Positions 3,728 through 17,361 of a DNA stretch of 19,255 nucleotides are shown here, piece by piece (positions within the stretch are counted from its first letter, which is position 1; every line of letters starts with the position of its first letter). Source of the stretch: an uncultured Prevotella sp. (GTDB taxonomy: Bacteria; Bacteroidota; Bacteroidia; Bacteroidales; Bacteroidaceae); contig CAKPWR010000052.1 of NCBI GenBank assembly GCA_934196725.1, positions 1 to 19,255 of the forward strand, written 5' to 3'. The position numbers and the translations under genes were made by a program. The notes beneath the pieces are model-generated. The model had not been told where the DNA came from and searched no databases. It was given only the letters and a program-made list of their open reading frames with translations.

Positions 3728-4759
3728 ATGGCAAAAGAAATGCAAGAGGGAAAATTGAATCCCAATGAAGGCAAACTGAAAGCTCTTCAGGCAGCCATGG
3801 CTAAGATAGAAAAGGACTTCGGTAAGGGCTCTATCATGAAACTCGGAGATGAGCACGTTGAGAATATCGAAGTTATCCCTACAGGCAGTATCGCTCTCGA
3901 CAATGCACTGGGCGTAGGCGGTTATCCTAAGGGACGTATCATCGAGATTTACGGTCCGGAATCTTCCGGTAAAACAACATTGGCTATCCATGCCATCGCA
4001 GAGGCTCAGAAGGCCGGCGGTATCGCTGCTTTCATTGATGCTGAGCACGCTTTCGACCGTTTCTATGCGGCTAAATTGGGCGTTGATGTTGATAACTTGT
4101 GGATTTCACAACCAGATAATGGTGAGCAGGCGTTGCAGATTGCAGACCAGCTGATCAGTTCTGCTGCTGTAGACATCGTAGTTGTTGACTCTGTAGCAGC
4201 CTTGACTCCTAAGAAGGAAATCGAAGGCGATATGGGTGACAATGTGGTAGGTCTTCAGGCTCGATTGATGAGTCAGGCTCTCCGCAAGCTCACTTCTACC
4301 ATCAGCAAGACCAACACTACCTGCATCTTCATCAACCAGTTGCGCGAGAAGATTGGTGTTATGTTCGGCAACCCAGAGACAACTACAGGTGGTAATGCAT
4401 TGAAGTTCTATGCATCTGTGCGTTTGGATATCCGCAAGGCAACAGCCATCAAGGATGGCGATGAAGTAGTAGGTAATCTGGTTCGCGTAAAGGTTGTGAA
4501 GAACAAGGTGGCTCCTCCTTTCCGCAAGGCTGAGTTCGACATCATGTTTGGCGAAGGTATCAGCCGTGCCGGCGAGGTATTCGGTCTGGCAGTAGCCAAC
4601 GACATCATCGAAAAGAGTGGTAGCTGGTATAGCTATGGCGGCTCTAAACTCGGACAGGGTGCCGATGCCTGCAAGGCATTGCTCAAGGACAACCCAGAAC
4701 TTCTCGATGAACTGGAGGCTAAGGTTCGCGAAGCACTTGCTGCCAAGGAGCAGAAATAA
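3728..4759 (+). CDS. recA: Recombinase RecA
   Basis: Full-length RecA of 343 residues. It forms ATP-dependent filaments on single-stranded DNA, drives strand exchange in recombination repair, and acts as the co-protease of the damage response. The Walker A motif GPESSGKTT lies at 76-84, Walker B ends at Asp154 (VVVDS), and the DNA-binding loop 2 region ([19 protein letters not shown]) lies at 214-232. The N-terminal polymerisation helix and the KGSIMKLG segment are present. The C-terminus ends with a short mixed-charge stretch and no long acidic tail. It follows the dehydrogenase by 20 bases and is closed by its own terminator. I see no promoter or LexA-like operator immediately upstream, so read-through from 1686 is the simplest supply, although an internal promoter within the upstream gene remains possible. 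Confidence 0.98.
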
Positions 4760-11793: not shown

Positions 11794-12057
11794 TTTTACT
11801 TTCTATTTATTTTAATCTAATTCTCTTATATCATTCGCTTTCTTCTCTTCCATATTTCCCACCACAAATGGAAAATACTATTATTATAGATGAAAAAAGG
11901 GGCAAAAGGTTTAATTTGTTGCATAAATAGTGCATAAATCATTCGAAATGTGACGAATTTGTGCCAACGATTGCACATTTTTTTGACATAAATCAAAAAA
12001 TATCATTTTTTATGCATATTTTACCGAAAAGTGTACCCGAAAACGGACAGAATATCC
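11794..12057. other. Intergenic regulatory region between DUF4923 gene and small gene
   Basis: No gene is visible. It should hold the DUF4923 promoter (minus strand), though I find no exact TAnnTTTG for it. It also holds the upstream control region of the 38-codon gene. Notable elements are the direct repeat TGCATAAAT at 11920-11928 and 11931-11939 (11-base period), TGTGC/GCACA around 11960-11977, and the FNR-like palindrome at 11983-11996. Confidence 0.5.
11983..11996. promoter_or_regulatory. FNR/CRP-like palindrome upstream of the small gene
   Basis: TTGACATAAATCAA fits the FNR box TTGAT-N4-ATCAA with one change, and lies within a longer perfect inverted repeat TTTTGA-N6-TCAAAA (11981-11998). 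Its centre is 75.5 bases before the last base of the downstream -7 element, near -81 from the predicted start, a spacing used by class I CRP/FNR activators. Confidence 0.4.
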
Positions 12058-12065
12058 TATCTTTG
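12058..12065 (+). promoter_or_regulatory. Candidate -7 element of the 38-codon gene
   Basis: TATCTTTG followed by GCAG is a strong match to TAnnTTTG. There is no TTTG at -33, which would fit a promoter that depends on an activator. Confidence 0.5.
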
Positions 12066-12093: not shown

Positions 12094-12210
12094 ATGAATG
12101 ATTTAATTAAGGTAAATTCAGAGAATCAGAATCAGGCCATCGACAGATGCCAGCAGATTCTTAATGAACGCCGCGAGGCACTTGCCTCTAAGGCTAGAAG
12201 AAGAGATTAA
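12094..12210 (+). CDS. Small 38-residue protein, unknown function
   Basis: A 38-codon reading frame starting MNDLIKVNSENQ and ending EALASKARRRD, with a normal ATG and TAA. It begins 28 bases after a good -7 element. Its 3' tail ends in a strong terminator, so it sits in a transcript of its own. From residue 14 on it is predicted helical and amphipathic, with a basic C-terminus (Arg35-37). It has one Cys (19), no signal peptide and no membrane segment. GC content and codon use resemble the neighbouring genes and contrast with the AT-rich flanks. I recognise no family. Alternatives are an incidental frame in a regulatory RNA, or a leader peptide, but no gene follows on this strand. Confidence 0.6.
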   Translation: MNDLIKVNSENQNQAIDRCQQILNERREALASKARRRD

Positions 12211-12437: not shown

Positions 12438-12486
12438 AAAATCCCGTTGTCTACCACTTGCATGGTAAGTACAACGGGATTTTTTC
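12438..12486. terminator. Bidirectional terminator
   Basis: AAAATCCCGTTGT (12438-12450) pairs with ACAACGGGATTTT (12471-12483), with an inner TACCA/TGGTA stem. The + strand has six T after it and the minus strand four, so it can end both the small-gene transcript and the M16 peptidase transcript. Confidence 0.9.
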
Positions 12487-15474: not shown

Positions 15475-16854
15475 CTAACATTTGAAGCTCTTCATCCATG
15501 CCCCCCTGAAGAGGCGAATGAGGAAGAGGATGCCACGGAAGGTAAGCTCCGTAGCCATTGCTATCCATACGCCCTCCAATCCATAGTTCTTTGATAGTCC
15601 GTAGGCAAGGGTAAGGCGTACCAGCCACATCGTGCTCAAGTTGATGGCGGCAGGCTTCATCGTATCGCCCGCACCCACGCAAACACTATAGGTTACGATG
15701 CTGGCAGCAAAGAACGGCTCGGCAAACGCCTCGATGCGAAGGCAGGTAGTGCCCAGTTCCCGGATGCTCTCAACCGGTGACAGTACCCCTATCATCTCCG
15801 GCGCAAAGACATACATCACCACGCCCATCAATGCCATCACGCCCATACCTAATCCTACCGTCATATAAGCAAAATTCTTGCAGAGATCCACGCGACCGGC
15901 TCCATGCGTCTGCCCTACCAACGTAGATGCCGCATCGCCGATACCGTAACCCGGCATATAGCAAAGGCTCTCTGCAGTAATGGCAAACGAGTGGGCAGCA
16001 ATGGCAATATTGCCCAATGGAGCTACAATCATGGTGCTCACAATCTGCGCACCGCTCATCAGGATATTCTGTATGGCTATCGGGATACTTATCTTGCAGG
16101 CATGCCTTACATATTCCTTTACCCATCTGAACGGCTCCTTGTCCTGACGGAGATTGAGAAGTCGGTTTCTGAATGCCGAAAGATAGAGATTGGGCAGCGA
16201 GATGCATATATACGCCATAGCCGTACCCATCGCTGCACCCACGACCCCCATCTTCATAATATAGATGAAGAGGTAATTGAACACAACATCACACAGGCAT
16301 ATCAATACCGCCATGATGCTGGGCGTATGCATGTTGCCTGCCGACTTGAGCATCATCTCAGAAATATGATAAAGGAATACAAACGGCAAAACCAAGCTGT
16401 AAATCAGAAAATAACGCGAGGAATTTGGGGCGATATCCTCACCTCCACCCAACCAATAAGGCAGATGGGAATGGATGCCTATACCGATAAGCGTTACGAA
16501 AAGGCTGAATGCCACTCCGCATATCAGGGCATGACGAAACACCTGGCGGGCCTTCACCAGGTCATTGGCACCAATGAAATGAGCCACCTGAACAGAAAAG
16601 CCAGTAGCAGCAGCACTCAGCAAGCTACCTACCAGCCAGGTGGTTGACTCGATGATTCCGATACTTGCCGAAGCCTCAGCACCTAGATGTCCCACCATCG
16701 AAGCATCAATAAAGAACATCAGCACGGTAGAAATCTGTGCCAGCATGGAGGGTACACTCAATCCGGCAATGAGATTCAGCTTCTCACCACCCGTCATCGG
16801 CCGCCCTAAGCGGATAGACTCCATCAGATAATCTGTCTTATTCTTGAATAGCAT
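15475..16854 (-). CDS. MATE family efflux transporter
   Basis: A 459-residue inner-membrane transporter of the MATE family, exporting cationic drugs or metabolites by sodium or proton exchange. About twelve hydrophobic helices are visible, arranged as two similar halves. The first half begins with GLSVPSMLAQISTVLMFFIDASMVGHLG, and the second contains ISIPIAIQNILMSGAQIVSTMIVAPLG, the repeated start signature of the two six-helix bundles. Length is normal for NorM/DinF-like members. The substrate cannot be told from sequence. The only good promoter I find for it is at 17172-17201, giving a leader of about 310 nt with a terminator hairpin just before the start codon; regulation by attenuation is therefore likely if this promoter serves it. 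It ends with its own terminator. Confidence 0.93.
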   Translation of the reverse strand: MLFKNKTDYLMESIRLGRPMTGGEKLNLIAGLSVPSMLAQISTVLMFFIDASMVGHLGAEASASIGIIESTTWLVGSLLSAAATGFSVQVAHFIGANDLVKARQVFRHALICGVAFSLFVTLIGIGIHSHLPYWLGGGEDIAPNSSRYFLIYSLVLPFVFLYHISEMMLKSAGNMHTPSIMAVLICLCDVVFNYLFIYIMKMGVVGAAMGTAMAYICISLPNLYLSAFRNRLLNLRQDKEPFRWVKEYVRHACKISIPIAIQNILMSGAQIVSTMIVAPLGNIAIAAHSFAITAESLCYMPGYGIGDAASTLVGQTHGAGRVDLCKNFAYMTVGLGMGVMALMGVVMYVFAPEMIGVLSPVESIRELGTTCLRIEAFAEPFFAASIVTYSVCVGAGDTMKPAAINLSTMWLVRLTLAYGLSKNYGLEGVWIAMATELTFRGILFLIRLFRGAWMKSFKC

Positions 16855-16882
16855 TTTTTCTCTTCTATTTATGATTTAACGC

Positions 16883-16911
16883 AAAAAAAGGCGACTCCAA
16901 AAGGAACCGCC
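16883..16911 (-). terminator. Intrinsic terminator just upstream of the MATE start
   Basis: In the minus sense, GGCG-gt-TCC-ttttGGA-gt-CGCC (16890-16911) is followed by seven T (16883-16889). It lies 28 bases before the MATE ATG, where a plain end-of-gene terminator would be unexpected: the gene upstream already has its own terminator at 17362-17412. Confidence 0.8.
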
Positions 16912-16940
16912 ATTTTATTTTAACTTTTAAAACTTTTTCG

Positions 16941-16948
16941 TACCTTTG
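16941..16948 (+). promoter_or_regulatory. Possible convergent -7 element, + strand
   Basis: TACCTTTG after TTTTTCG matches TAnnTTTG, but no TTG lies at -33. It faces the minus promoter at 17172 across the G-poor segment. No gene follows it on this strand, so it may be unused or make an antisense RNA. Confidence 0.3.
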
Positions 16949-16986
16949 TTTTTCCCAAAACTGAATCTCCCACCGAAGTAGGACAG

Positions 16987-17166
16987 TACTAAATTACCTA
17001 GAATAAACAACCTATTTTACCTAACAAACTAAATACCTGTCGTCCTTGAATAAACAATCTTTCGTTACCTTAACTAACACCTAAATAAAAAACTAACAAC
17101 CTTAAACCTAAAAACTAAACCTATAAAATCTATTACCTAACTAAAAACCTAAAACTTATTTTTTTC
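16987..17166. repeat. Strand-asymmetric ACCTAA-rich low-complexity segment
   Basis: The + strand is A/C/T-rich and nearly free of G; 17065-17166 has none in 102 bases. Variants of TTACCTAA and AACCTAAA recur about ten times without fixed spacing. Such G-poor tracts resemble untranslated leaders in this phylum. Confidence 0.6.
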
Positions 17167-17171
17167 GATTG

Positions 17172-17201
17172 CAAAGGTACAACTATTTTTCGAAACCGCA
17201 A
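17172..17201 (-). promoter_or_regulatory. Promoter reading toward the MATE gene
   Basis: On the minus strand, TTG (17199-17201), 19 bases, then TACCTTTG followed by CA (17172-17179). It is the best promoter match between the FKBP and MATE genes. Predicted start is near 17166. Confidence 0.62.
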
Positions 17202-17239: not shown

Positions 17240-17253
17240 TTGACGTATATCAA
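17240..17253. promoter_or_regulatory. FNR/CRP-like palindrome upstream of the MATE-leader promoter
   Basis: TTGACGTATATCAA fits TTGAT-N4-ATCAA with one change, like the site at 11983-11996. Its centre is 74.5 bases from the last base of the minus-strand -7 element. The 17254-17361 stretch beyond it shows nothing I can assign. Confidence 0.4.
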
Positions 17254-17361
17254 CCACTTGTGTGCGAACACAAACACTTGTTAACACATCAAAAAGGTCT
17301 ATTAACACAAATACGCCATCGGATTGCGTTGCAGTCACACCTCCCTGTCTGGGCAAAGCTG

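Follow-up and report, generated by a model that had tools for sequence, protein, structure and literature searches.

A predicted ORF-less small RNA upstream of the MATE gene of a Segatella copri-like bacterium, probably part of a Crp/Fnr-type micro-transcript regulon

The DNA upstream of the MATE-family transporter gene in the 19,255-nt stretch analyzed here (the window) probably specifies an ORF-less small RNA that belongs to a Crp/Fnr-type regulon of micro-transcripts and is independent of the transporter. It is intergenic, with its own promoter and intrinsic terminator and, at the sequence level, without a conserved ORF. This reading is carried by the architecture of the unit, its recurrence in relatives, the covariation of its terminator, the existence of paralogs and a promoter signature common to the regulon, all of them visible in the DNA itself, and from these we infer transcription, the family of the regulator and an action as a small RNA. 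In S. copri, one of the major bacteria of the human gut, few regulatory RNAs have been studied. The genome to which the window belongs is Segatella copri-like, since the MATE protein encoded here and that of S. copri iA622 (L001) share 97% identity in the best segment. The initial annotation had offered two interpretations, a leader controlling drug efflux by termination or a separate small RNA ending at 16883, and was partly right: the latter is supported by the sequence, and the view that the leader controls drug efflux is corrected by the present analysis.

Organization of the locus

The unit and the related features of the window are listed below.

17258..17273, unstranded: palindrome TTGTGTGCGAACACAA, candidate second operator, read from the sequence
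17240..17253, unstranded: FNR-type palindrome TTGACGTATATCAA (minus strand: TTGATATACGTCAA), 60 nt upstream of the -7 box
17172..17201, minus strand: promoter TTG ... TACCTTTG (-33/-7) of the Bacteroidota type, read from the sequence
16883..17165, minus strand: predicted free-standing RNA of ~280 nt with no conserved ORF, its start deduced from the promoter and its end from the terminator
17131..17159, minus strand: invariant 29-nt 5' segment ATAAGTTTTAGGTTTTTAGTTAGGTAATA, identical in the window and loci L001-L004
17038..17071, minus strand: repeat unit AAGGTAACGAAAGATTGTTTATTCAAGGACGACA, with near copies in paralogs L089-L091
16968..16983, minus strand: hairpin with a cUUCGg loop, lineage-specific (window and L001; variant in L002)
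16883..16911, minus strand: intrinsic terminator of the predicted RNA, from the terminator scan and covariation
16869..16913, minus strand: 14-codon frame MAVPFGVAFFCVKS, overlapping the terminator stem, not conserved
15475..16854, minus strand: downstream MATE-family transporter gene, 459 aa, from the ORF, with the family name taken from the initial sequence reading
11983..12065, plus strand: second operator/promoter module of the window (TTGACATAAATCAA, 61 nt, TATCTTTG)
12094..12210, plus strand: 38-aa ORF MNDLIKVNSENQNQAIDRCQQILNERREALASKARRRD (MNDLIKV...) behind the second module

A minus-strand promoter had been proposed at 17172-17201, upstream of MATE, and reading of the sequence confirmed it as one of the Bacteroidota type, with the -7 box TACCTTTG at 17172-17179 and the TTG at 17199-17201. 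Scans for E. coli-type promoters do not seek promoters of this kind. Its GTACCTTTGC is invariant across the window and L001-L004, as is TTATTCAAGGACGAC within the repeat unit. Sites of the TGTGNNCGNNCACA type, similar to the candidate second operator, adjoin many, not all, of the other modules. The predicted RNA is C-poor (7% C) and rich in TAGGT/AGGTAA. The sequence TACCTTTG also occurs on the plus strand at 16940-16947, inside the RNA, and does so likewise in L001 and L002; it may represent an antisense promoter facing the RNA.

Conservation and repeats of the predicted RNA

A total of 389 coding relatives of the MATE protein were found, and the best 80 of these 389 loci were kept. Many of the 80 have the gene order glyS, FKBP, gap, MATE, and in Prevotellaceae the unit is found repeatedly in this gap. 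In 46 of 81 loci, the window included, MATE is preceded by the exact module (TTGAYNNNNRTCAA, 60-61 nt, TANNTTTG) at a distance of at most 2.2 kb. Among the 35 loci without it are some early-ending contigs as well as L002 and L004, which keep the RNA behind a degenerate operator; these two were added by hand to give the set of 48 loci used below, in which L067 and L068 derive from one assembly. At the MATE-side locus, L002 and L004 have degenerate versions of the FNR-type operator, so that some members of the S. copri complex have not kept Fnr-type control.

Conservation is concentrated at the 5' end of the RNA. In the window and L001-L004, 29 bases (17131-17159) and another block of 15 bases are invariant, against a longest invariant run of 13 nt in the 1371 nt of the MATE ORF (76-91% DNA identity to the window), and the 3' half of the RNA is variable, with 12% invariant columns. 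Across 206 loci, the 29-nt segment was found only at these five sites and in duplicate copies of them. Such invariance suits, and does not prove, a small RNA that makes contact through an exposed 5' region.

The transcripts predicted behind the modules are rich in AGGTA, GATTG and GGATAAC repeats. In 80 regulon regions of 300 nt, many of which are related so that the counts are not independent, AAGGTAA occurs 90 times (8.1 in shuffles), AAGATTG 83 times (5.5) and GGATAAC 52 times (1.6). The 48 MATE-side RNAs hold 66 AGGT..GATTG units (shuffle mean 2.7, maximum 6), with at least one in 33 of the RNAs and at least two in 22. The window copy, with eight TAGGT, four AGGTAA, one AAGATTG and no GGATAAC, has fewer family repeats than many relatives. 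The idea that the repeats are antisense to -7 boxes was rejected, as CAAAGGTA occurs 13 times in the 48 RNAs and AAGGTA 118 times. A plasmid search with the RNA sequence as query returned no match.

Terminator and folding

The strong terminator claimed at 16883-16911, 28 nt before the MATE ATG, holds up. Its stem (16890-16911) has nine pairs, six of them G-C, followed by a U tail to 16883. Terminator-like sites number 17 in the window against a shuffle mean of 16.8, and the terminator scan alone therefore proves nothing. A candidate terminator is present between the RNA and MATE in 41 of the 48 loci, some of these candidates perhaps being other hairpins (e.g. L042), and the terminator finder gave no candidate in L047, L049, L051, L052, L053, L067 and L068. 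The covariation alignment comprised 19 of the 41, chosen as simply alignable (the 22 left out include L004, L007, L008 and L014). In these 19 sequences, 97.7% of the cells pair and seven of the nine pairs show two-sided changes. Out of 500 shuffles, none attained the two-sided changes, the paired percentage or the covariation score, and nine attained the count of further pair types. Slid controls scored far lower than the real stem. In L003 and L004 the U tract is weaker (ATTTTC).

The leader as a whole folds like its shuffles (z 0.01; 48 of 100 equally good), and its last 118 nt have a z of -1.9 (6 of 200 shuffles). The terminator stem is kept in the minimum-energy fold, the one structure examined. 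The initial annotation had proposed aligning homologous leaders for covariation, and such an alignment bears out the terminator stem. The UUCG hairpin exists, at 16968-16983; because it is restricted to the window, L001 and, as a variant, L002, it is not a family feature, and it was discarded as a conserved element. Some other relatives have C(GUGA)G or C(GCGA)G hairpins. The 14-codon frame (16913-16869) is likewise real and not conserved: it starts with GTG in L002, and its length and stop differ in L001-L004. The window has no match in Rfam 15 at gathering score. Seven Rfam matches were obtained for L001, L002, L004, L007, L008 and L014, all below gathering with E values of at least 0.6; one of these sub-gathering matches, to mir-368 (E 2.3), overlaps the L002 terminator.

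Paralogs and the link to MATE

When five genomes were searched by BLAST, the L001 leader serving as query, further copies away from MATE came to light. L089, L090 and L091 represent the same locus from three genomes of the S. copri complex, flanked by a peptidase-like ORF and an rpoN-like region. L092 (S. buccae) sits between ispF-like and glycosyltransferase-like genes, L106 (G003) precedes a similar glycosyltransferase, and L093 and L094 are located elsewhere, the names of neighboring genes being readings of their translations. Except for L094, where the operator deviates by one base, all paralogs have the exact module. They resemble the MATE-side unit in promoter and 5' sequence and have terminators unlike its own. 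As the paralogs stand beside other genes with their own promoter and terminator, the RNA can be separated from MATE.

The transporter gene often has a promoter-like element of its own. A strict TANNTTTG box lies at most 75 nt before the MATE start in 30 of the 48 loci and a looser one in 40, in 36 of these 17-28 nt before the start (raw pattern counts). Even the loose pattern is missing from the window, L001-L004, L049, L052 and L059. A recognizable MATE promoter after the terminator was found in none of the five S. copri-like loci (window, L001-L004), and because this applies to all five, a linkage to MATE is conceivable within the S. copri complex, where the gene may, to judge from the sequence, depend on read-through or on an unrecognized promoter. 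In L001 (3890-4000), degenerate direct repeats of approximately ACGTTTAAATCATAAATAG were seen by eye between the terminator and the MATE start; the window has a single copy. The gap between FKBP and MATE is shorter than 200 nt in 11 of the best 80 loci of the 389 relatives, and the close relative G109 (locus L145; 80% DNA identity over 542 nt) lacks the whole unit, its FKBP-MATE distance being less than 100 nt by eye. Control of MATE by termination, whether as attenuator or riboswitch, is not supported as a conserved role, given the paralogs beside other genes and the MATE boxes after the terminator in relatives, and the unstructured leader also speaks against it.

The promoter signature and its regulon

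The pattern TTGAYNNNNRTCAA-N60/61-TANNTTTG has 9, 9 and 7 matches in three genomes of the S. copri complex (G001, G002 and G003) and 10 in S. buccae (G004), with 0 for reversed-pattern controls. When the spacing was allowed to range over 45-75 nt, 35 of 48 operator/-7 pairs in the four genomes fell at 60-61. The module occurs in 38 of 61 family genomes, including G001, and is absent from 23, the control total being one match. Its targets were examined in the four Segatella genomes. By reading, the 35 module sites comprise 19 tiny ORFs (at most 46 aa, some paired), nine ORF-less repeat RNAs, six larger proteins and the unassigned L096, so that tiny ORFs and ORF-less repeat RNAs account for 28 of the 35. 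Of the nine sites in G001, three are ORF-less RNAs, including the one beside MATE, five are tiny-ORF units and one codes a 116-aa protein. One searchable promoter signature collects 7-10 mostly very short predicted transcripts per Segatella genome in the four genomes.

Four of the six larger proteins are a related, secreted-looking protein of 116-121 aa; the module was noted ahead of such a protein (MKK..ILAVA..) at L097, L103, L122 and L206. A Pfam search with the L122 copy found nothing over cut-off, and searches with regulon proteins, eight against Pfam and seven against NCBIfam, gave the same outcome. The 38-aa ORF behind the second module of the window (12094..12210) has relatives behind like modules in L001, L002, L004 and S. 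buccae (L120). A terminator-like palindrome 3' of this ORF, at ~12440-12486, was seen by eye.

The RNA is placed in the regulon by an FNR-type operator that keeps a fixed spacing to the promoter, save for the degenerate operators of L002 and L004. The TGTGNNCGNNCACA palindrome often takes part in Segatella promoters. In some Bacteroides-type promoters, e.g. in G037 and G060, inspection by eye showed a Cur-like box between the -7 box and the FNR-type operator, which suggests joint control in Bacteroides-type genomes. The helix pattern E..SR is that of FNR. A Crp-family protein with the helix TPETLSR is present in G001, G002 and G004 and not among the two G003 matches; judged by its sequence, this protein is a candidate for the regulator only. 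In excerpts of PMC1274295, the FNR box is written as TTGATnnnnATCAA, and TTGACnnnnGTCAA is named as a site for HcpR. Cur was rejected as the regulator, since its consensus TATGTTnTAnAACATA differs from the TTGAY-N4-RTCAA site, and inspection by eye found no Cur site TATGTTnTAnAACATA in the promoter region of the window. Upstream of fusA2, neither a Cur site nor a TGTGNNCGNNCACA site was seen by eye in three S. copri-complex genomes; S. buccae has TGTGTTCGCACG at this position, and two other family genomes have Cur-like sites.

Micropeptide ORFs in relatives

An ORF of 26-28 aa was read between the repeats and the terminator in 17 of the 48 loci, with start regions like AAAGGGTAAAAAGATG, and an ORF scan found no such ORF in the S. 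copri-like loci. Synonymous codon changes exceed non-synonymous ones in 15 of 18 pairs (e.g. 8/0, 5/0, 12/4 and 11/5), which share sequences and are therefore not independent; the expected synonymous fraction for the micropeptide codon pairs is 0.16-0.22. The exceptions are L042/L070 (6/6), L067/L074 (4/6) and L008/L014 (2/5). At ~3850-3950, L007 has a stop codon in the micropeptide ORF that is kept in L008 and L014. L113 has tandem micropeptide ORFs in one predicted transcript, two near copies of MMVL.MTLAVVAALFAEVVNVNKKISLGK followed by a relative.

Proposed model and alternatives

The combined results suggest a model in which transcription would start near 17165 on a Crp/Fnr-type signal, and the transcript would be released at its own terminator at 16883. 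In this S. copri-like genome the product would be an ORF-less, largely unstructured, C-poor RNA of ~280 nt. It would belong to a regulon of very short transcripts, in whose promoters the FNR-type palindrome is held rigidly 60-61 nt upstream of the -7 box and is often joined by a second, TGTGNNCGNNCACA-type palindrome. Some members code micropeptides behind a repeat-rich leader, and others, this one among them, keep leader and terminator but have no recognizable ORF, placing small RNAs and micropeptides under one probable sensor. The ORF-less RNA probably acts in trans through its exposed invariant 5' segment and its repeats, and MATE would be the next gene, receiving at most read-through. It is conceivable, if rather unlikely, that the micropeptide genes and ORF-less RNAs of the regulon have in common imitations of a translation start region (AAGGTAA..AAGATTG) and that the ORF-less members, this one included, serve as decoys that titrate an initiation factor or an RRM-type RNA-binding protein, in which case translation would be retuned when the Crp/Fnr-family sensor fires. 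The single AAGATTG and the lack of GGATAAC in the window copy lower the probability of this idea.

It is unlikely that the segment is instead a leader of MATE, in which a ligand, a protein or a ribosome on the short frame sets termination at 16883 against read-through. With no TANNTTTG-like box from terminator to MATE in the window and L001-L004, read-through may be the only source of MATE transcripts there, and the weaker U tract of L003 and L004 (ATTTTC) also speaks for it. However, RNAs of this type also lie beside other genes, most RNA-bearing relatives have a separate MATE box, and MATE occurs without room for the RNA in 11 of the best 80 loci and in L145. Moreover, the RNA matches no Rfam class at gathering score, the leader is no better structured than shuffles and retains its terminator stem in the minimum-energy fold, and the 14-codon frame has no constant start, length or stop.

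The presence of the micropeptide ORF in 17 of 48 loci and its absence from the S. copri-like ones would also be expected of a decayed gene, a non-functional remnant left after S. copri lost an ancestral ORF, as would the degenerate operators of L002 and L004 and a 3' half with 12% invariant columns. We regard such decay as decidedly improbable, given the invariant blocks of 29 and 15 nt in the window and L001-L004 (at most 13 nt in MATE), the terminator retained with covariation, and the two further ORF-less paralogs of G001 that keep promoter, repeats and terminator. There is still less reason to believe that the S. copri RNA is an mRNA whose micropeptide begins at a non-ATG codon, e.g. the TTG in AAAGATTGTTTATTCAAGGACGACAGG. 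The AAGGTAA..AAGATTG repeat does resemble the start region AAAGGTAAAAAGATTATG of regulon ORFs, and the frame LFIQGRQ recurs in the window, L001, L002 and L003, but the TTG-started frames differ in length and later sequence among these same four loci, and a hydrophobic micropeptide-like product is absent. The ORF-less small RNA is the preferred reading.

Comparison with known systems

FnrS-type sRNAs are Fnr-activated small RNAs. Like the RNA described here, they are intergenic, with their own promoter under an FNR-type palindrome and an intrinsic terminator. Unlike them, the present unit has a promoter of the Bacteroidota type with the operator ~60 nt above its -7 box, its RNA is poor in C, rich in repeats and related to coding transcripts, and its regulator is a candidate only.

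SrcF is an S. copri small RNA needed for gut colonization (El Mouali et al. 2024, as summarized in an excerpt of the review PMC11814227), and it shares with the present RNA its origin in the S. copri species complex. The present RNA, absent from Rfam 15, could be SrcF, known here by description only, or a paralog of it, and its novelty is provisional for this reason. A literature search found no publication on this RNA or regulon, and one may exist in print.

The following comparisons draw on excerpts of the cited papers. MasB of Bacteroides thetaiotaomicron is an sRNA activated by Cur (PMC10994844), a Crp-family protein (PMC3878776), and would thus resemble the present RNA in being under a Crp-family regulator, as proposed here. 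The Cur consensus TATGTTnTAnAACATA (PMC6989115, PMC3878776) differs from the present TTGAY-N4-RTCAA site, and some promoters carry both, by eye. SnoA/HcpR is a nitrosative-stress RNA locus (PMC13370916, preprint) that similarly ties an RNA to a Crp/Fnr-family regulator in Bacteroides, but SnoA is antisense to the hcp promoter, which the present unit is not. FopS and GibS are paralogous sRNAs bound by RbpB, and sORFs were excluded in the FopS loci (PMC11697453). Compared by description only, they offer a likeness as paralogous Bacteroidaceae sRNAs that are bound at single-stranded 5' parts.
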